Part shown: piece after piece, positions 23,236 to 33,734 of the stretch
How the letters are laid out: every line of letters begins with the position of its first letter
How positions within the stretch are numbered: the first letter of the stretch is position 1
IMG/VR virus record: IMGVR_UViG_3300007609_000056
Span: 1 to 33,815 of that record
Source: a virus
Length of the DNA: 33,815 nt
Reading direction: 5' to 3' (one strand)
Translations under genes and position numbers: made by a program
Notes under the pieces: generated by a model
Databases searched by the model: none
What the model was told of the DNA's origin: nothing
What the model saw: the letters and a program-made list of their open reading frames with translations, nothing else

Positions 23236-24923
23236 CAGAAGCGCCTCCGTGCAAGCATATCGGCGATCTCGGCCTTCTGCCGGCGGAGCTCGGCCGAGAA
23301 GATAGCGCGATCCTGGGCGCTAGCCCCGCCCGAGATGTTCACCACGGGCGCATAGTTAAGCCCGGCGCCGCCCATATTCTCGTTGGCGACGATGGTGCCG
23401 CTCCGGCCCGGTACCATGAGCTCCGGCCCGCGCTCGCCGACGAGGTAAGCTCGGCCCGCTGTCACGCTGCCGCCCTCTGCCCGGGCTCCGCCGAAGAAAC
23501 TGCCGATAGCGCCGAAGATGCTGCCCAGGCCCCCGGTCCCGCCGCTGCCAGGGAAAATGCTCTTGAAGGCGCTCATCAGCTGGCTCTTGAGCACCTCGGA
23601 GGCCATTTGCGTGAGGATGTTGGAGAAGGACCGGAGCATCCCGTCCTTGCCATCCGTTACGCCGCTGATGAGGGCGTCGGAGATGCTGGATTGCAGCTTG
23701 TCCGTCTCGGTCTTGATGGTCTCCACCGTCTCGGTGACGCCTTCAACGGATCCGATTTGTGCGCCCTTGAGCTCCTCGGCTGTGCGCCGCGAGGCCAGCG
23801 TGATCTCCTGAAGCGTCGCCATGACCCGCTCGGAAGGGAGCGGCCCCTCAAGGGCGTCGGTGATCTCCTGGCGGATCCGATCAGCCTGGCGCCCGAAGGC
23901 ATCGGCCAAGCCCTGAAGCGTCCCACTCACGCTCGTCTCGATCTCGTCCATGCCGAAGGCGCGAGCGAGCACGTTGTATTTCTCGATGAGAAAATCGACG
24001 GCCTTGGCCGCCTGGGCCATCCCGCCGAGCAGCGTATCCATGAAGATGGCAAAGGCCAGCTGCACATTCTTGATGACCAGGCTAAGCCCGAGAATCATGT
24101 CGCCGGCAAAGCCAAACGCCCTGCCCACCGCCTGCGCCACCCGCTGGCCGATGCTGCCGAAATCCTCGGAGTCGAGAGCAGCCTGGCGCAGCAGGTTGGC
24201 CGCGTATTCAACCGCCGGAGCAAAGGCGATGGCCAGCTGATTACCCACGCCCTGAAAGACTGCCCGAGCGCGGTCCATGGCATCATTCGCCGCCTCGACT
24301 TGCGCGGCGTCAACGCGGCTGATGGCTGTGCCCAGGGCAGATGCTTCGCCGGTCATCTCTCGAAGCGCGGCCGATCCACCACCCAGCGTGTTGACCAGCG
24401 CCACGCCCTCGGAGTCGAATAATTTCATGGCGAGGCGCACCCGGTCCGCCTGCGTTCCCACGCCGGCCATGGCATCGGCCACCACTTCCATCTGCTGATC
24501 AAGCGGCAGCTTGACCAGATCCTGGGCATTGATGCCGAGCTCCTCGAGCGCGCCCTTAGCCTCGCCTGTCCCGATGGCGGCTTCCGCCACCCGTCGGGTC
24601 ATGCGTTGCAGGGCCATGTTCATCGTCTCGGTTCTGACGCCGGTCAGGTTGGCCGCGTGCTGGAGTCCCGCCAGAGCCTCGGTAGTGGTCCCGATCTTGT
24701 CGGCGGTCTTGGTGAGGTTGTCGATGCTGGTCATCGACATCTTGGTGAAAGCGGCCAGGGCGCCAGCTGCGGCAGTTGCCGCGCCGGAGCCGAACTTGAG
24801 AAAGACCGGCGTCAGTCGGTTAATGCTCTTGCGGGTAGCCGCGGCCCCCGACTGGATACTCTTAAACGCCGCCGCGGTCTTGTCTTTCGCCAGGATTGTT
24901 AAGACGGTCTTTTGGTCAGCCAT
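23235..24923 (-). CDS. Tail tape measure protein
   Basis: The 562-residue protein is Ala-rich and mostly helical, with the typical tape-measure opening (TVLTILAKDKTAAAFKSIQ), hydrophobic segments near residues 45-60 and 255-290, and DNLTKTADKIGTTTEALAGLQ. The C-terminus has the GGARAEGGSVTAGRAYLVGERGPE motif common to tape measures. At about 0.15 nm per residue the tail would be about 85 nm, a short siphovirus tail. It starts inside the end of the T frame (ATGGCTGA). GGGA precedes the ATG. Confidence 0.85.
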   Translation of the reverse strand: MADQKTVLTILAKDKTAAAFKSIQSGAAATRKSINRLTPVFLKFGSGAATAAAGALAAFTKMSMTSIDNLTKTADKIGTTTEALAGLQHAANLTGVRTETMNMALQRMTRRVAEAAIGTGEAKGALEELGINAQDLVKLPLDQQMEVVADAMAGVGTQADRVRLAMKLFDSEGVALVNTLGGGSAALREMTGEASALGTAISRVDAAQVEAANDAMDRARAVFQGVGNQLAIAFAPAVEYAANLLRQAALDSEDFGSIGQRVAQAVGRAFGFAGDMILGLSLVIKNVQLAFAIFMDTLLGGMAQAAKAVDFLIEKYNVLARAFGMDEIETSVSGTLQGLADAFGRQADRIRQEITDALEGPLPSERVMATLQEITLASRRTAEELKGAQIGSVEGVTETVETIKTETDKLQSSISDALISGVTDGKDGMLRSFSNILTQMASEVLKSQLMSAFKSIFPGSGGTGGLGSIFGAIGSFFGGARAEGGSVTAGRAYLVGERGPELMVPGRSGTIVANENMGGAGLNYAPVVNISGGASAQDRAIFSAELRRQKAEIADMLARRRF

Positions 24924-25397
24924 TCTTTTCCCGCCTCATCTCAAACCAGGCCGCCCAGCCTAAAAACTCCCGGTAGTCCATCTCGCGAATCTCGGCGACC
25001 GTCTTGTGCAAATGCTCGGCCAGGGCGTACTGCATTTGCAGGTCGGGGTCGCCCCTCAGTTTCCCGAAACGTCCTCCGCGCTGGCGTCCTCGGCATTAAT
25101 CTCGCCCACGATACGCGCCAGCACGTCAGGATCGACGGAACGGAGGAGCTCGGTCTTTTCGATCTTCCGAAAGACCGGCTTGCCTTCGCCGTCGATCAGG
25201 CGGTGAACCAGGGTCATGACCATGGCCTCCGCGCTCTTGCCTGCGTTGGCCAGCTCCATGATCTCGCCGAGATTGTGGAGGCTGATGCCGGGCCGAATGT
25301 AAACCGTTGCGTCCCACTCGGGGATGCGGAGCTCACGCGGCTCGGCGCTCAGCTTGGCCTTATAGTGGCTCTTTGCCCTCTCCAGCAAAGTGCTCAT
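24916..25397 (-). CDS. Tail assembly chaperone GT fusion (-1 frameshift product)
   Basis: A -1 shift at the slippery heptamer just before the G stop joins the 113-residue G protein to 47 further residues, giving 160. The T part reads LRGDPDLQMQYALAEHLHKT and then REMDYREFLGWAAWFEMRREKNG, matching the gpT-like chaperone C-terminus. The T frame has no start codon of its own. G and GT together chaperone tape measure assembly in lambda-like tails. The T stop overlaps the tape measure start by eight bases. The product is inferred from sequence. Confidence 0.78.
25056..25397 (-). CDS. Tail assembly chaperone G
   Basis: The 113-residue protein is read without frameshift. It has the segment ELRIPEWDATVYIRPGISLHNLGEIMELANAG and ends EDVSGN. 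Position between the tail tube and the tape measure, size and the frameshift identify it as a G-like chaperone. It starts as TGATG overlapping the tube gene stop. Confidence 0.8.
   Translation of the reverse strand: MSTLLERAKSHYKAKLSAEPRELRIPEWDATVYIRPGISLHNLGEIMELANAGKSAEAMVMTLVHRLIDGEGKPVFRKIEKTELLRSVDPDVLARIVGEINAEDASAEDVSGN
25059..25065 (-). promoter_or_regulatory. -1 ribosomal frameshift slippery site G GGA AAC
   Basis: On the minus strand GGGAAAC lies immediately before the G stop codon TGA (25058-25056), in the frame G GGA AAC. Slipping by -1 gives GGG AAA, then CTG AGG in the open T frame. Lambda uses GGGAAAG at the same place. GGGGCGACCCC soon after could form a small hairpin. Confidence 0.85.
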
Positions 25398-26972: not shown

Positions 26973-29249
26973 TTAGCTGCCGCCGTCGTTACCGAGGCAG
27001 AAGCTGACCGCGTGACGCACTGCCACGTCGCAGCTCTGAAGAGCCACCACGCGCACCGTGCCGCTGGTGCTGGCGGTGTAGGGATCGACCACGATGTCGA
27101 GGCCGCCGAACATACCGACCAGTAGATCGCTGAAGTTGCCGAAGTAGGCGTCCCCAGCAGCCACCTGGTTGGAGACAATGCCCCGATAGCCGTTGATGGT
27201 GCCGCCGGGTTCTACGACGAACCGACCTGATCCGCTGTCCACGGTGGTCGTCTTGAGTGCGCCATACATGGCCGCGCCCATGATGTACGCGAGGTTGCCC
27301 ATGAGAGCGTTGTCCTCGGCCACCTTGGTCTCCATCTCCACCACTTGGGCGAAGGTGGGAACGAGATCAGGAGCGGTTCCGAAATCAACGGTGTTGATGC
27401 CGGAGGTGTTCTTGATCCCGGTGGGCTGACCCGAGGAGCCAGAGCCGGAGAGCGCGCCGAGGTCAATCGCGAGAGCGATTGCAGAGGCGAGGTCGTCGCG
27501 GATGAGGGCTTCCACGTCGAGGCTCGACTGGATGAGCAGCTGACGCGTCACATCCGTGTGAGCACCGAGCGTGCGCGGCACCATGGACACGGAGCCCACG
27601 GTCATTTCCGACTCAGAGGAGGCCCCGCCTTCCGTAGCGATCCAGCCTGCGGCTGCTGCTGCGGTTTTCTTGGGGATCTTCACGTCGCCGGAAAGGCCAT
27701 TGAGCATCCGAGCGCCGGCTTGCATGACGGAGCTGGCATTGCGCAGCACGTCGATGAAGTCGCCACCACGGAAGTCGTCGGTGAACAGAGCAGCCTCGTC
27801 GGCGCTGTTCAGGTCGCGCTTCCAGTTGCGGAGCACTTCAGCCGGGAGCAGGATGCCCTGAGCAGCGCGACCGTACTGGTCGGACGCAGCGCGGGAGCAC
27901 TCAAACTCAAATGCAGCGGCCTCTTGAGCGCGGCGGTCGGTGGGGTTGGCCAGAGCGTGGATGGCGCGGATGATGCTGAAGCGCTTCACTTCTTGCTTCG
28001 TCATGCCCACGTCTTGAGCCTCGAGCGCACGCTCGGAGCCGATCACTTCGAGGAGCTCGCCACGGAACTCTTCGATGCTCTTGCCATCGGCGATTGCCTT
28101 GCGGGCCATCTCGCCTTGATTGTGCCGAGAACCGAGCTCGACGATTTGCGCAGCACTGCGCTGTGCGGCTTTGCGGGCTTCCGCCTCGACTGCCGCGATG
28201 TCCACTTGATCGGTCATTTTTTGACCCTCCTGGGGATTGTTGGACTCGACGGTGATTTGAGGGACGTGCCCGCTTCGACCAACGCCGACTGTCACGTCAG
28301 CGGGGATCGAGACGATGCTTGCCTCAACGGGGCGCCAGGATCGGGCCACATAAGTGTCCTTTTCCTTGCGCTCCAGCTTGTTGATCGCGTAGCCGATGGA
28401 GACATTTCCACGGATTCCGTCCACAACATCAGAAAAGACCTCGCTGGCCAGTGCGCCTTTTCCAAAACGCACCGTCGCACGGAGTCGCCGTGCCGAGCCA
28501 TCGAGCTCCACTGATTCAATGACGCCAATTTGCTGCTCGGGATCGTGGTCGAGCAGAAGCGGGGCGCGGCCGCTATTCAAGAAAGCCAGGTCAATCGCGT
28601 CGGAGGAGTGCTCAAGCACCTCCATGCCGAAGCTGCGGGCCACGGGCTCCTCAGAGGAGAGGGCCATGCGCACCCGGCGCTCGTCAGCGTTGACGGCCTG
28701 CGGATCGAGCTCCATGGCCCGATGCACCACCTCGGGAGCGGCTTTGCGCTCGGCGTCGTCTGCTTCAGCGTCGTCTGCTTCAGGCGCGGCAGGCTCGGCC
28801 TCGTCGGCCTCGTCGGCCGGCAGCTCTTCCGCCTTGATTTCTTCTTGGTCAGTCATGCCACGCTCCTCTTGGCGACTCTCCCCGTCATTATAGCCCCTTT
28901 CCGCATCATCAGCGTCATCCATGCGGTCGGAGATGTTATTGGCCCAAGTCCGGCCCGGATCGCCGCCCCACAAAGCCCACGCTATGCGCCCAGCCGAGGG
29001 GTAGCCCTCCTCGCCGGGGCTCCAACCCTGCCCCTGCTTGTCCACTTCATGGCGGGCGAAATAGGACACCATGCGCTTCACCGTGTCGAAGCTGAGCTCG
29101 CGCCGGTTGCTGATGTCACGAGCTCGGGCCACGCCGACCTCGGTGCCGCCGCGTCCGTACTCCTCGCGCCATGCGAGGCCGCGCTCGGCCTCCTCGACCA
29201 TGCCTTCGGTGGGGGTGGTGCTGATTTCCACGCCTTTATAGGTCGGCAT
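26973..29249 (-). CDS. Prohead protease / major capsid polyprotein with nested starts
   Basis: One 758-codon frame joins three parts. The first (about 1-131) has the TYKGVEI and KRMVSYFARHEVDKQGQGWSPG pattern found in phage head proteins. The second is an HK97-type prohead protease with H in LLLDHD and S in GNVSIGY. The third is an HK97-fold major capsid protein with FRGGDFIDVLRNASSVMQAGA. I start at 29249 because GGGAG lies six bases upstream, while the 29309 start has no such support. Two strong internal ribosome binding sites precede in-frame ATGs at 28856 and 28217, so the capsid may also be made separately as a 414-residue protein. It overlaps the portal gene by 14 bases. Confidence 0.85.
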   Translation of the reverse strand: MPTYKGVEISTTPTEGMVEEAERGLAWREEYGRGGTEVGVARARDISNRRELSFDTVKRMVSYFARHEVDKQGQGWSPGEEGYPSAGRIAWALWGGDPGRTWANNISDRMDDADDAERGYNDGESRQEERGMTDQEEIKAEELPADEADEAEPAAPEADDAEADDAERKAAPEVVHRAMELDPQAVNADERRVRMALSSEEPVARSFGMEVLEHSSDAIDLAFLNSGRAPLLLDHDPEQQIGVIESVELDGSARRLRATVRFGKGALASEVFSDVVDGIRGNVSIGYAINKLERKEKDTYVARSWRPVEASIVSIPADVTVGVGRSGHVPQITVESNNPQEGQKMTDQVDIAAVEAEARKAAQRSAAQIVELGSRHNQGEMARKAIADGKSIEEFRGELLEVIGSERALEAQDVGMTKQEVKRFSIIRAIHALANPTDRRAQEAAAFEFECSRAASDQYGRAAQGILLPAEVLRNWKRDLNSADEAALFTDDFRGGDFIDVLRNASSVMQAGARMLNGLSGDVKIPKKTAAAAAGWIATEGGASSESEMTVGSVSMVPRTLGAHTDVTRQLLIQSSLDVEALIRDDLASAIALAIDLGALSGSGSSGQPTGIKNTSGINTVDFGTAPDLVPTFAQVVEMETKVAEDNALMGNLAYIMGAAMYGALKTTTVDSGSGRFVVEPGGTINGYRGIVSNQVAAGDAYFGNFSDLLVGMFGGLDIVVDPYTASTSGTVRVVALQSCDVAVRHAVSFCLGNDGGS
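28215..28232 (-). promoter_or_regulatory. Internal ribosome binding site for the capsid part
   Basis: AGGAGG lies about eight bases before the in-frame ATG at 28217-28215 (MTDQVDIAAVEAEARK), exactly where the protease domain ends. Starting here would give a 414-residue capsid precursor, close to the usual HK97-type size with its scaffolding segment. Confidence 0.6.
28854..28868 (-). promoter_or_regulatory. Internal ribosome binding site for the protease part
   Basis: AGAGGAG lies six bases before the in-frame ATG at 28856-28854 (MTDQEEIKAEELPADE). It opens an acidic linker followed by the prohead protease domain. Starting here would give a 627-residue protease-capsid product without the N-terminal segment. 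Confidence 0.5.
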
Positions 29250-30993
29250 TGGAGGCTCCCGCTCCGCCCACAATCTTCTTCGCCTTATCTTCAGCAACGC
29301 CGAAACCAACGATTAAGATTTCAATGGCGGATTCTTGGCTGATCACGCCGGAACCATAAGCCGTCACCACCTCGATGATCGACGCCACCTGCGCTCCGTT
29401 CATCAGCTTGTCAGGCGATTGGATGCCTTGATCTTCAGCGGCAGGAGACGGAGCATCAGCTGGCGCTTGCTGCATAGGCTGAGCATCTTGAGGCATCGGG
29501 ATCGCTTGGCCTGTCTCCTCATCAATCATCGGCACCACCGGCATCTGCTGCGCCGCGTAGGGCTCCAGCGCGTACTTCACGCCGAACTGCGCCATGAGCT
29601 CGCGGTCTTTCGCAATCTGCGAGAGGAGCTCCTCAACGTCTCGGCCATAGTTTGAGGCCACGTCCTGAAGGGAGAGAATGCCCGCCTTCATTCCGGTGAT
29701 CGCCGCCGTCATTTCCTTCTGGGGGTCCACCCAATTCCACGCCCGGCCCCGGAACTCTGCCGCATCGGAGAAGCGCTCAAACTGCCGGACGGGGATGCCG
29801 AAGCTGTCCACCTCCATGGCCGCCTCAAGCCATGCGTCGAAGGCTGGCCGCACAAAGTGGTCGAGCATGAATTGCTGGAGCGTGCGGTAGTAGTCGCGCT
29901 CCTCAAGGGCACCCTGCCTGATGCTGCTGTAGCTCGTGGCCTCAAGGTCATTGGAGAGGGACGTGTAGGACACCCCCAGGCCCGAGGCGATGCCTTTGAG
30001 CACGCTGGTGTGGAAGGCATCGAACTCGGAGGAGGGATAGTCGGGGTCGAAGCTCTTGAAGTCGACGCCCTGCGGCAGCTGGTGAAAGGTTCCGGGCTGC
30101 GCATCCATGATCGGCACATTGCCATCCATATCATCAGCCACGAAGCCATCGCCGCTCGGGGACGTGAAAAAGCCCATTTTCGACGCGCCGACTCGGGCGT
30201 TGATGATCGCCGCCTCGCGCAGCGCGCCCAGCTGCTTCATGGAAGCCAGTGCTGCCGCCATCCAAGGCTCGCCGCGAGTCTGCCCGGCGCGCAGCTGGCG
30301 GAAAATGTGAATCACGCGGTCAGCCGGGATGCGCTTGTGCTTCGGGCTGCGCGTTTGCGTGGTGAAGTCATAGTCGCCGGGATGGCCGGTCAAGACGTGA
30401 TAGGCCACCGGCCGGCGGAAGCGGTCGAGCTCCACGCCCATGCGAATCTCATTGCCATTGGGCAGGCGCTCCGACTTCTCCTCGTCGATCTGGTCCGGCT
30501 CGATGAACTCAAGGGCGAAGGAATCGTGGAAAGAGGCGCCCCGGTGCTTGATGATGAACACCTCGCCGTCCCTTGCGAGGCCCTCCATCACCATCTTCTG
30601 CACGTCATTCCAGCTCATTTTGCCGTCGACGGTGCAGTTGCCGATCCGGCCCCAGCGCCGGAAGGCGGCCTCCACGGCGTTGTTTCCGCCCTGATCCAGC
30701 CGGCCAACGGTGTCGACCGCCTTCACCTGAAGGGTGAAGCCACGGTCCCCGATGACGTTGGTTTTCAGCAATTCCAAATAGCGCTTCGCGTACTCATTGT
30801 TTCGCGCCAGGTCCCGGGTCCGCGCCCGCATCCTTGAAATTACGGGGTACAGCTCCGAATCTGCACTGCGCTCGCTGCCGGGGAAGTCAGCAAAAAGCCG
30901 ACCAGTGCTGGCGGCCGCGTAGGATCGCTTGAAACGCCGCCCCTTGACGGGCTCGGGCTCCGGCTTCTTCTTGAACCAGTCAGCGATCCCCAT
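29236..30993 (-). CDS. Portal protein, lambda type
   Basis: The 585-residue protein is a lambda-type portal (Phage_portal_2 family). It begins MGIADWFKKKPEPEPVKGRRFKRSYAA and has RTRDLARNNEYAKRYLELLKTNVIGDRGF near 55-82, then VSYTSLSNDLEATSYSSIRQGALEERDYYR near 320-350. Twelve copies would form the vertex channel used for packaging and head-tail joining. It lies between the gpW-like gene and the capsid ORF. GAGG is eight bases upstream of the ATG at 30993. Confidence 0.9.
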   Translation of the reverse strand: MGIADWFKKKPEPEPVKGRRFKRSYAAASTGRLFADFPGSERSADSELYPVISRMRARTRDLARNNEYAKRYLELLKTNVIGDRGFTLQVKAVDTVGRLDQGGNNAVEAAFRRWGRIGNCTVDGKMSWNDVQKMVMEGLARDGEVFIIKHRGASFHDSFALEFIEPDQIDEEKSERLPNGNEIRMGVELDRFRRPVAYHVLTGHPGDYDFTTQTRSPKHKRIPADRVIHIFRQLRAGQTRGEPWMAAALASMKQLGALREAAIINARVGASKMGFFTSPSGDGFVADDMDGNVPIMDAQPGTFHQLPQGVDFKSFDPDYPSSEFDAFHTSVLKGIASGLGVSYTSLSNDLEATSYSSIRQGALEERDYYRTLQQFMLDHFVRPAFDAWLEAAMEVDSFGIPVRQFERFSDAAEFRGRAWNWVDPQKEMTAAITGMKAGILSLQDVASNYGRDVEELLSQIAKDRELMAQFGVKYALEPYAAQQMPVVPMIDEETGQAIPMPQDAQPMQQAPADAPSPAAEDQGIQSPDKLMNGAQVASIIEVVTAYGSGVISQESAIEILIVGFGVAEDKAKKIVGGAGASNADL

Positions 30994-31591: not shown

Positions 31592-33442
31592 TCACCGCCA
31601 GCTGTTAACGAAGCCGCCCGCCCGGGCCGGCCGTGGCACAAAGGCTTGGCGCCTGGGCTCGGGCGCCGCCTCTTGCTTTGTCTCCACCGGGGCGGCGTCC
31701 AATCGGGCCGCCAAGGCGTTAACGTTCACGCCAATGATAGCATGAGCGGCCAATGCGTACACAAAGCAGTCGAGGGCCTCATTCCGGGGCCGGGTTTTGA
31801 CAAACTCGCGCCGCTGGAATCCCTTGTGATACCGCGTCACGATCTTCTCGGCGGTGAGCTGCTTGAAGTATTCATCGGTCAGGATGTCAGAAAAATGGAC
31901 ATAGGACGGGCCCGGTTCCGTCACCTTGAGCCGTCCGAACACCACATCCTTCACCGTGTGCACGCCAACCGGGAACAGCGGGCACTTGCCGACGTTGTTC
32001 TTGCTCGGCCGCCCCACCATGGCCTTGCCTTCGCCGCCCACCCCCTTGATGGCGAACACCCGCCGCCCGGCGTTGCGCTTGGCGTAGGCGTAAACCGCGT
32101 TGGTGTAGTGGCCGCCCGAGTCGATGCAAGATGCCCTCACCATCAGCTGCCGCCCACTCTCCGTCTCATGCTGCGCGAACAGCTTCGAGTCCAGCGCCGT
32201 CCAAAGCTGGGGCGTGCTCGGGTCGCCATAGAGCGTTTCGTGGCTCAGCACCCACGTCTCGTCATCTCGGCCATGGCCCAGCACCGTCACCTCGAGGCGG
32301 TTGTCCTGCACGTCGACGCCCGCCGTCAGCACGATCACCTCGTCGGGGATCGCCGGCAGCGGCTCGCGCCTTTCCGCCAGCGCCCAATCGTCAACCGTCT
32401 CCCCTTGGTCCTCCCACGTCTCGCCGAGGTAGGTGTTGGTCCACACCCGGAGCATTTCCGGGTTCTTTTTCACGCTCAGGAAGTCTCTCACCCCGTCGCT
32501 GAGGGGCGTCCAGGGTGAATACATTCCGTTTATCGCAAAACCAGCCACCCCAGTGAAGGGTTTCGAGGCCCTCCACTCGCCATTTCTGATCGCCCAGATG
32601 CGGTCAGCGTCGGTCCACAATGCGCCACATCCTTCGCAGGCGTAGCGCGCTGTTTCGGGGTCTTTGTCGATCCATTGCACGTTGCTCCACTTCAGCACCT
32701 GAAACTGCTCGCAGTGGCGGCAAGGCACATGATAGCGGCGCTGATCCGACGCCTCGAAGGCCTGCTCTATGCGGCTTGCGCCCTTGTTGGTAGGCGTGCT
32801 CACCATGATTACCTTGCGATTCCAGAAGGTGGCCGCCCGTTTCCGCGCCAGCTGGATGGGGTCGCCCTCGGTCCCGGCGCTCGATGGGTAGCGGTCCACC
32901 TCATCGCAGAGCACGAGCCGAATGGGACGGCTTGCCAGCCCCGCCGCACTGTTCGCCCCCACCATCGTCAGCGCACCACCGGGGAAGACCTTGTGCAGCG
33001 TGGTGTTGCCAGAATCCCGAGCCCTCGGGTCTTTGATCTTCCCGCGCAGGGCCGGGGTCGAGCGCACGAGGCCGGCGGCCACCCGGTCCTTTGAAAACGC
33101 CTGCGCCATCTCAAGGGTCGGCTGGAGCACGAGGATCGGGCAGGGATCGTGGGCAATGTGGAAGCCGAGAATGTTGAGGATCGCCTCGGTTTTGCCCAGC
33201 TGAGCTCCGGCCATGACCACCACCTCGGGGGTTGCCGGATCCGAGCAGGCGTCCATGATGCCGCGTTGGTACTCGGCCCTTGACGTATGCCAGCGCCCGG
33301 GTTCGCTACTGCTTTGCGAGTCTAGCCGTCTTTCTCGGTCTGCCCACTCGCTGACGCTTAGCCGGGGCGGCGGCTTCATCACCTTCAGCGCTGTCTTGGC
33401 TGCCGTCCACATTCGCGTCCGCTGGGCTGCTCTTTGGGTCAT
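31592..33442 (-). CDS. terL: Terminase large subunit, lambda gpA family
   Basis: The 616-residue protein belongs to the lambda gpA-like terminases. The ATPase has EWADRERRL near 32, Walker A-like GAQLGKT (79-85) and Walker B LVLCDEVD (176-183). A zinc-binding segment follows (CRHC, then CEGCG). The nuclease half has acidic residues in GVDVQDNRLEV, CIDSGGHYT and ALDCFVYALAAH. gpA-type enzymes cut cos to leave 5' overhangs of about 12 bases, consistent with the terminal repeat here. The ATG at 33442 follows GAGGAG by 10 bases and overlaps terS by 137 bases; shorter starts at 33412 or 33376 are possible. Confidence 0.9.
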   Translation of the reverse strand: MTQRAAQRTRMWTAAKTALKVMKPPPRLSVSEWADRERRLDSQSSSEPGRWHTSRAEYQRGIMDACSDPATPEVVVMAGAQLGKTEAILNILGFHIAHDPCPILVLQPTLEMAQAFSKDRVAAGLVRSTPALRGKIKDPRARDSGNTTLHKVFPGGALTMVGANSAAGLASRPIRLVLCDEVDRYPSSAGTEGDPIQLARKRAATFWNRKVIMVSTPTNKGASRIEQAFEASDQRRYHVPCRHCEQFQVLKWSNVQWIDKDPETARYACEGCGALWTDADRIWAIRNGEWRASKPFTGVAGFAINGMYSPWTPLSDGVRDFLSVKKNPEMLRVWTNTYLGETWEDQGETVDDWALAERREPLPAIPDEVIVLTAGVDVQDNRLEVTVLGHGRDDETWVLSHETLYGDPSTPQLWTALDSKLFAQHETESGRQLMVRASCIDSGGHYTNAVYAYAKRNAGRRVFAIKGVGGEGKAMVGRPSKNNVGKCPLFPVGVHTVKDVVFGRLKVTEPGPSYVHFSDILTDEYFKQLTAEKIVTRYHKGFQRREFVKTRPRNEALDCFVYALAAHAIIGVNVNALAARLDAAPVETKQEAAPEPRRQAFVPRPARAGGFVNSWR

Positions 33443-33734
33443 AGTTTTCAAGCTCCTCGAGTGCTTCCCGCACCAGATCCTCGATCACGGCCTGGCACTT
33501 CCCCGCCTCACCTTCGCTGGCGACCACCGGGGCCGCCTTCGTGGGCACGCTCATCATTTTTGCCTTCACGGCCATGAGCACGGTCTCCCACGCCTTGATC
33601 ACATCATCGACCACCACCAGCTCGCCCCGCACCTTCGCGAGCTCCAGCTCCGCGATCTCCGCCTCGGCGTTGACCTTGCGGGTGCGGGCTTCGTCGTAGG
33701 TGCTTCCGAGTTTGACTCCGCCTGTGCTTGCCAT
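33306..33734 (-). CDS. terS: Terminase small subunit, Nu1-like
   Basis: The 142-residue protein has the pattern TYDEARTRKVNAEAEIAELELAKVRGELV, followed by a helical part (VIKAWETVLMAVKAKMMSVPTKAAP) and a flexible acidic then basic tail (RQRVGRPRKTARLAKQ). This is the usual layout of Nu1-like small terminases that bind cosB and recruit TerL. The gene starts 81 bases from the right end. The ribosome binding site is weak (AGG). Confidence 0.8.
   Translation of the reverse strand: MASTGGVKLGSTYDEARTRKVNAEAEIAELELAKVRGELVVVDDVIKAWETVLMAVKAKMMSVPTKAAPVVASEGEAGKCQAVIEDLVREALEELENYDPKSSPADANVDGSQDSAEGDEAAAPAKRQRVGRPRKTARLAKQ

Follow-up and report, generated by a model that had tools for sequence, protein, structure and literature searches.

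The stretch of DNA analyzed here (the window: 33,815 nucleotides, IMG/VR virus record IMGVR_UViG_3300007609_000056) encompasses a tailed-phage genome with a standard packaging and head gene cassette on the minus strand. The genes for the terminase (31592-33451), a head-tail joining-like protein and a lambda-type portal protein (29236-30993) are followed by a single open frame that encodes 758 amino acids (26973..29249, minus strand), and then by the genes for a connector, a head closure protein, a tail terminator, a tail tube protein, a chaperone and a tape measure protein, in this order. The frame is uninterrupted from the ATG at 29249, which overlaps the end of the portal gene (29236), to the stop codon ending at 26973. 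The closest named phage, Roseobacter phage CRP-811 of the CRP-822-type family (PMC12629253), shows 60.5% protein identity and an identical gene order. Downstream in the cassette, a slippery GGGAAAC sequence (25059-25065, minus strand) is located immediately 5' of the stop codon of the tail chaperone gene (25056-25397); the -1 frame is open to approximately position 24923 and would yield an extended chaperone similar to lambda G/GT, and CRP-811 contains a comparable unannotated gap 5' of the tape measure gene.

A protease-capsid fusion in one open frame

The 758-aa frame combines an N-terminal domain, a prohead protease, a delta (scaffold) domain and an HK97-fold capsid core. In an AlphaFold model built with 48 relatives, the N-terminal domain (residues 1-121; 28887..29249) is folded and mostly helical, with pLDDT values of 75 to 94 over most of its length. 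The label of head protein that an earlier reading made from the sequence alone had attached to this segment finds no support, given that no Pfam match was detected even at E<=5 and that the only match is phrog_2859, a family of unknown function. The same domain is present in unrelated proteins of Vibrio and other phages, PaBG and a Halorubrum virus as well as in the DSL-LC01 protein annotated as 'capsid maturation protease'. The protease domain (residues 185-315; 28305..28697) belongs to the Peptidase_S78 family, and the best matches to its fold, herpesvirus assemblins and T4 gp21, are weak (E ~0.01). The catalytic His235 (codon 28545-28547) and Ser284 (codon 28398-28400) are invariant in 108 of the 108 sequences and, accordingly, the fused protease is presumably active.

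The delta domain (residues 345-483; 27801..28217; ~15.3 kDa) is helical: AlphaFold predicts helices across residues 351-459, consistent with this assignment, with pLDDT of ~66-87 for residues 350-400 that falls beyond this point. The model of the capsid core (residues 484-758; 26976..27800; ~28 kDa) is poor (pLDDT 30-50) and was left unused; the core was assigned by homology to the solved R4C capsid chain (PDB 8gta), with which residues 488-750 align at 1.6e-47. The delta domain thus lies upstream of the mature R4C chain, which aligns from residue 488, the layout of an HK97-type capsid precursor in which an N-terminal helical delta domain precedes the mature chain. The folded parts are separated by two segments that are predicted to be disordered, at residues 122-183 and 316-349; Met132 and Met345, the two internal methionines considered below, are located inside these low-confidence linkers.

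Pfam detects both Peptidase_S78 and Phage_capsid (1.5e-41) above the cut-off, and phrog_617 matches residues 175-754 at 5.4e-145, so that the frame is an S78 protease-capsid fusion of this family, with both domains in one frame and full-length homology. The NF045541 model for a prohead protease/major capsid fusion scores 147.9 bits, over residues 186-442 only, well short of its cut-off of 525 bits. We collected 168 related loci (117 distinct proteins) from viral contigs, named phages and one contig of an archaeal MAG. Wherever the frame is complete, the protease and the capsid protein are encoded in one frame, in 168 of the 168 loci and down to ~31% identity of the capsid core, so that the fusion is old; the arrangement of HK97 gp4 and gp5, with the protease and the capsid protein encoded by separate genes, was seen neither in the window nor in these loci.

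The start codon at the junction of protease and capsid

As proposed in the sequence-only reading, the frame contains three in-frame ATGs that are preceded by Shine-Dalgarno (SD) sequences. Start 1 (29249) follows GGGAG (29256..29260; -7.0 kcal/mol) at a distance of 6 nt, start 2 (28854..28856, Met132) follows AGAGGAG (28863..28869; -8.2 kcal/mol), also at 6 nt, and start 3 (28215..28217, Met345) follows AGGAGG (28226..28231; -10.8 kcal/mol) at 8 nt, all on the minus strand. The last start is, as claimed, the strongest of the three, and its SD is also the strongest among the starts tested in the structural cassette of the window; the 414-aa product would be near the length of an HK97-type capsid precursor. 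Both inner starts indeed read MTDQ, and ATGACNGAYCAA occurs at these two places only (0.02 expected). The MTDQ peptide is not conserved in the relatives, and we rejected it as a mark of duplication.

The Met345 column is invariant in the alignment, and there is little conservation in the surrounding linker. An ATG is found at this position in every full-length relative, down to ~30-40% identity, with the exception of VP882 and phiHAP-1, in which an ATG with its own SD (-9.4 and -5.9 kcal/mol, respectively) lies 8 codons upstream. The peptide patterns used in the first search for loci encode the start-3 SD themselves (NPQEGQKM), and therefore the search was repeated with capsid-core patterns only and the resulting loci were counted apart. 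With a strong SD defined by a calculated energy of <= -5 kcal/mol, the junction ATG is preceded by one in 64 of the 64 loci from the core-only patterns, in 50 of the 55 representatives below 90% identity and in 18 of the 23 below 75%, compared to 111 of the 884 other in-frame ATGs (12.6%).

To control for the encoded peptide, the codons were redrawn from the usage of each gene with the peptide fixed, and set-level means were compared in place of a per-sequence synonymous test, in which ties occurred. The observed mean SD energy at the junction is -7.44 kcal/mol vs -4.48 +/- 0.34 in this null, a value reached in 0 of 1000 draws, nor was the observed mean reached in 20,000 trials in which a random in-frame ATG was taken from each ORF. 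In 34 of 54 ORFs (3.2 expected), no other in-frame ATG has an SD as good as that of start 3, and GAG is preferred over GAA within the junction SD (odds ratio 5.4, p=5e-8), with the reservation that such p-values are optimistic because the sequences are related. The SD appears in varied codon phases (CAG-GAG-GGT, AGG-AGT, GGA-GTC and others) and so encodes different residues, and the pattern persists at the lowest identities, in R4C (-9.5 kcal/mol), RcCronus, ep3 and CRP-821. The junction SDs of FoX5, Mano and Alexa are weak (-3.5 to -4.3 kcal/mol), and the cyanophages S-CBS1, S-CBS3 and S-LBS1 possess the junction ATG without an SD. We consider S-CBS3 to be neutral evidence because its starts often lack an SD, that of the annotated capsid gene included (SD <= -5 kcal/mol at 17 of 46 annotated starts, compared to 38 of 49 in R4C).

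Across the family, these comparisons indicate that the ATG and SD of start 3 are maintained by selection; the ATG at 28217 almost certainly serves as a start. Two other explanations of the signal have to be considered. An SD-like sequence could slow down ribosomes between domains and so aid folding without serving as a start, a role that would fit its location in a linker that separates folded domains. Pausing, however, would not require a start codon, and all relatives retain the ATG, typically at initiation spacing. The residue after the junction ATG is start-like (44 of 54 with S or T). Across the family, the mRNA is also less structured near start 3 (-7.9 vs -12.7 kcal/mol), although GC is lower there as well and the region is only moderately open in the window itself; we consider pausing very unlikely.

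The second explanation, raised in the sequence-only reading, is that formerly separate genes lost their stop codons, in which case, if the fusion were recent, the SDs would be mere leftovers. Separate protease and capsid genes do exist in distant phages, namely Cellulophaga phage phi39:1, in which the capsid gene product (440 aa) is similar in length to the start-3 product, and Faecalibacterium phage FP_Epona (ClpP type), and the boundary of the N-terminal domain varies among the relatives. Nevertheless, the fusion is universal among the related loci, none of those examined is a close relative with separate genes, and the SD has persisted in a rapidly changing linker that varies by both substitutions and indels, where a leftover would have decayed. 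A recent fusion is thus unsupported and very unlikely.

The probable pre-protease start and the N-terminal domain

The sequence-only reading placed a start at each domain boundary. This is supported for the capsid boundary; the support for the middle start is weaker. An ATG with an SD of <= -5 kcal/mol is present in the pre-protease linker of 33 of the 35 relatives that contain the N-terminal domain (0.37 expected from windows of the same length). The Met132 column itself is used in this manner in 20 of these 35 relatives; in the other 15, the start is missing from this column or lacks a strong SD there. The N-terminal domain is absent in ~30 relatives, in several of which the protease-capsid gene starts at the position of start 2 or close to it, and in two loci (L164 and L074), the first residues (MATYK) are retained whereas the remainder of the domain is gone. 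Given the linker ATGs with SDs and the many loci without the domain, start 2 probably works, albeit as a plastic signal, and the N-terminal domain is an optional module. In the isolated phage CRP-823 (locus L005, ~3690), a one-base insertion relative to CRP-821 shifts the N-terminal domain to another frame, which may reflect a genuine separation of the two parts or an error in the sequence. A further in-frame ATG, Met179 (28713-28715), is located just before the protease fold and is preceded by a strong SD-like stretch (-10.3 kcal/mol) with no evident role.

A putative nested capsid gene and its known counterparts

A rival reading of the locus is that all ribosomes start at 29249, the 758-aa protein assembles as such, and the N-termini of the capsid protein are produced purely by proteolysis by the attached protease. 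In its favor, no stop codon interrupts the frame, the protease seems to be intact, and annotators usually call the long product alone (CRP-823, with two CDSs, is an exception). Moreover, the mature R4C capsid protein begins ~140 residues past start 3, so that proteolysis occurs in any case. However, this reading leaves the invariant ATG with its SD in a non-conserved linker unexplained. Furthermore, the R4C shell consists of 415 capsid copies (PMC10276861), and as many long copies would fill ~46-93% of a T=7 interior, a rough estimate with assumed inner radii of 24-19 nm. We therefore regard a polyprotein without internal initiation as unlikely.

It appears much more likely that the locus is a nested gene that yields an abundant capsid precursor from start 3 and a few protease-capsid carriers. 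We infer initiation, the product ratio, co-assembly and cleavage along the following lines. Ribosomes would initiate mainly at the ATG at 28217, which has the strongest SD, yielding the 414-aa precursor that consists of the delta domain and the capsid core, and the starts at 28856 and 29249 would give rise to fewer, longer products in which the same precursor is preceded by the S78 protease and, in the longest form, also by the N-terminal domain. Because the long and short forms share the delta-capsid part, they could co-assemble, and the procapsid would thereby incorporate a small proportion of protease, which would then excise both itself and the delta domain so that the mature subunit of 28 kDa remains. 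The proposal of the sequence-only reading that the long forms are protease carriers is supported by the invariance of the catalytic residues.

Single-gene fusions of a protease, scaffold and capsid also exist with a ClpP-type protease, in Pseudomonas phage MD8 (PMC8508860) and in the RcC Rhodobacter phages (PMC8601537). Like the S78-type fusions, those of the ClpP type (loci L173-L260) encode both proteins in one frame and contain, where the protease ends, an ATG preceded by an SD (-6.9 kcal/mol in the MD8-like group, -5.9 in mEp460, -6.6 in S1, -5.9 in RcMamaDuck and -5.7 in Shewanella phage 1.050), although the protease is of a different lineage. The similarity of this putative start to the S78-type one is suggestive only because, in the MD8-like group, conservation extends to the junction peptide, and further ATGs with SDs are found within the protease. 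In a fused gene of a Helicobacter prophage (BK070049), with a capsid core that is 28% identical, the junction ATG has an SD of -7.8 kcal/mol, the strongest in the ORF. It seems to us about as likely as not that fused protease-capsid genes as a class, in two or more lineages whose proteases (S78 and ClpP) are unrelated, retain an internal start for the capsid protein that sets the protease to capsid ratio, and that some of these genes, like that in the window, are nested in three tiers and yield three co-terminal products.

Protease-capsid fusions, as the sequence-only reading stated, were already known; the internal starts are the new part. A nested start in a protease/scaffold gene is known as well: PMC4378225 states it for Mu and predicts it for PaMx73, and the lambda C/Nu3 overlap is cited in PMC8508860. 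The latter paper, on MD8, makes no mention of internal starts, and in the CRP-822-type roseophages (PMC12629253), which together with the other phrog_617 members are direct homologs (CRP-811), the fusion is annotated as one major capsid protein and internal starts are not described. In the open-access literature searched, we found no earlier report of a protease-capsid fusion with a nested start for the capsid protein.

Fusions of this kind are annotated in many phages as one long capsid protein, and the assembly of 415 subunits each carrying a protease is puzzling. A conserved internal start would be a simple answer to the question of how the shell assembles without a protease on every subunit, and it predicts that the main start of many capsid proteins in the databases is wrong. 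In HK97, the protease (gp4) and the capsid protein (gp5) are products of two genes, and the delta domain is a scaffold that is removed by the protease; the domains and their order are identical here, but they are encoded in one frame, so that the protease would be tethered to some of the capsid precursors. In herpesviruses, the protease-scaffold protein UL26 and the nested scaffold UL26.5 have a common C-terminus. The putative start-3 product is likewise nested and co-terminal, and the protease domain shows the weak similarity to the herpesvirus proteases mentioned above, whereas UL26.5 has its own transcript and is a scaffold rather than a capsid protein. The closest parallel in arrangement is with lambda C/Nu3 and Mu, in which a protease gene contains an internal in-frame start and the short product with the common C-terminus is an abundant assembly component; the window shares with these the conserved internal start with an SD and the common C-terminus. 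In lambda and Mu, however, translation from the internal start yields a scaffold alone, with the capsid protein encoded by another gene, whereas here the nested product would be a capsid precursor that contains the capsid core together with its own scaffold domain, extending the nested-gene logic of C/Nu3 to the capsid protein itself.
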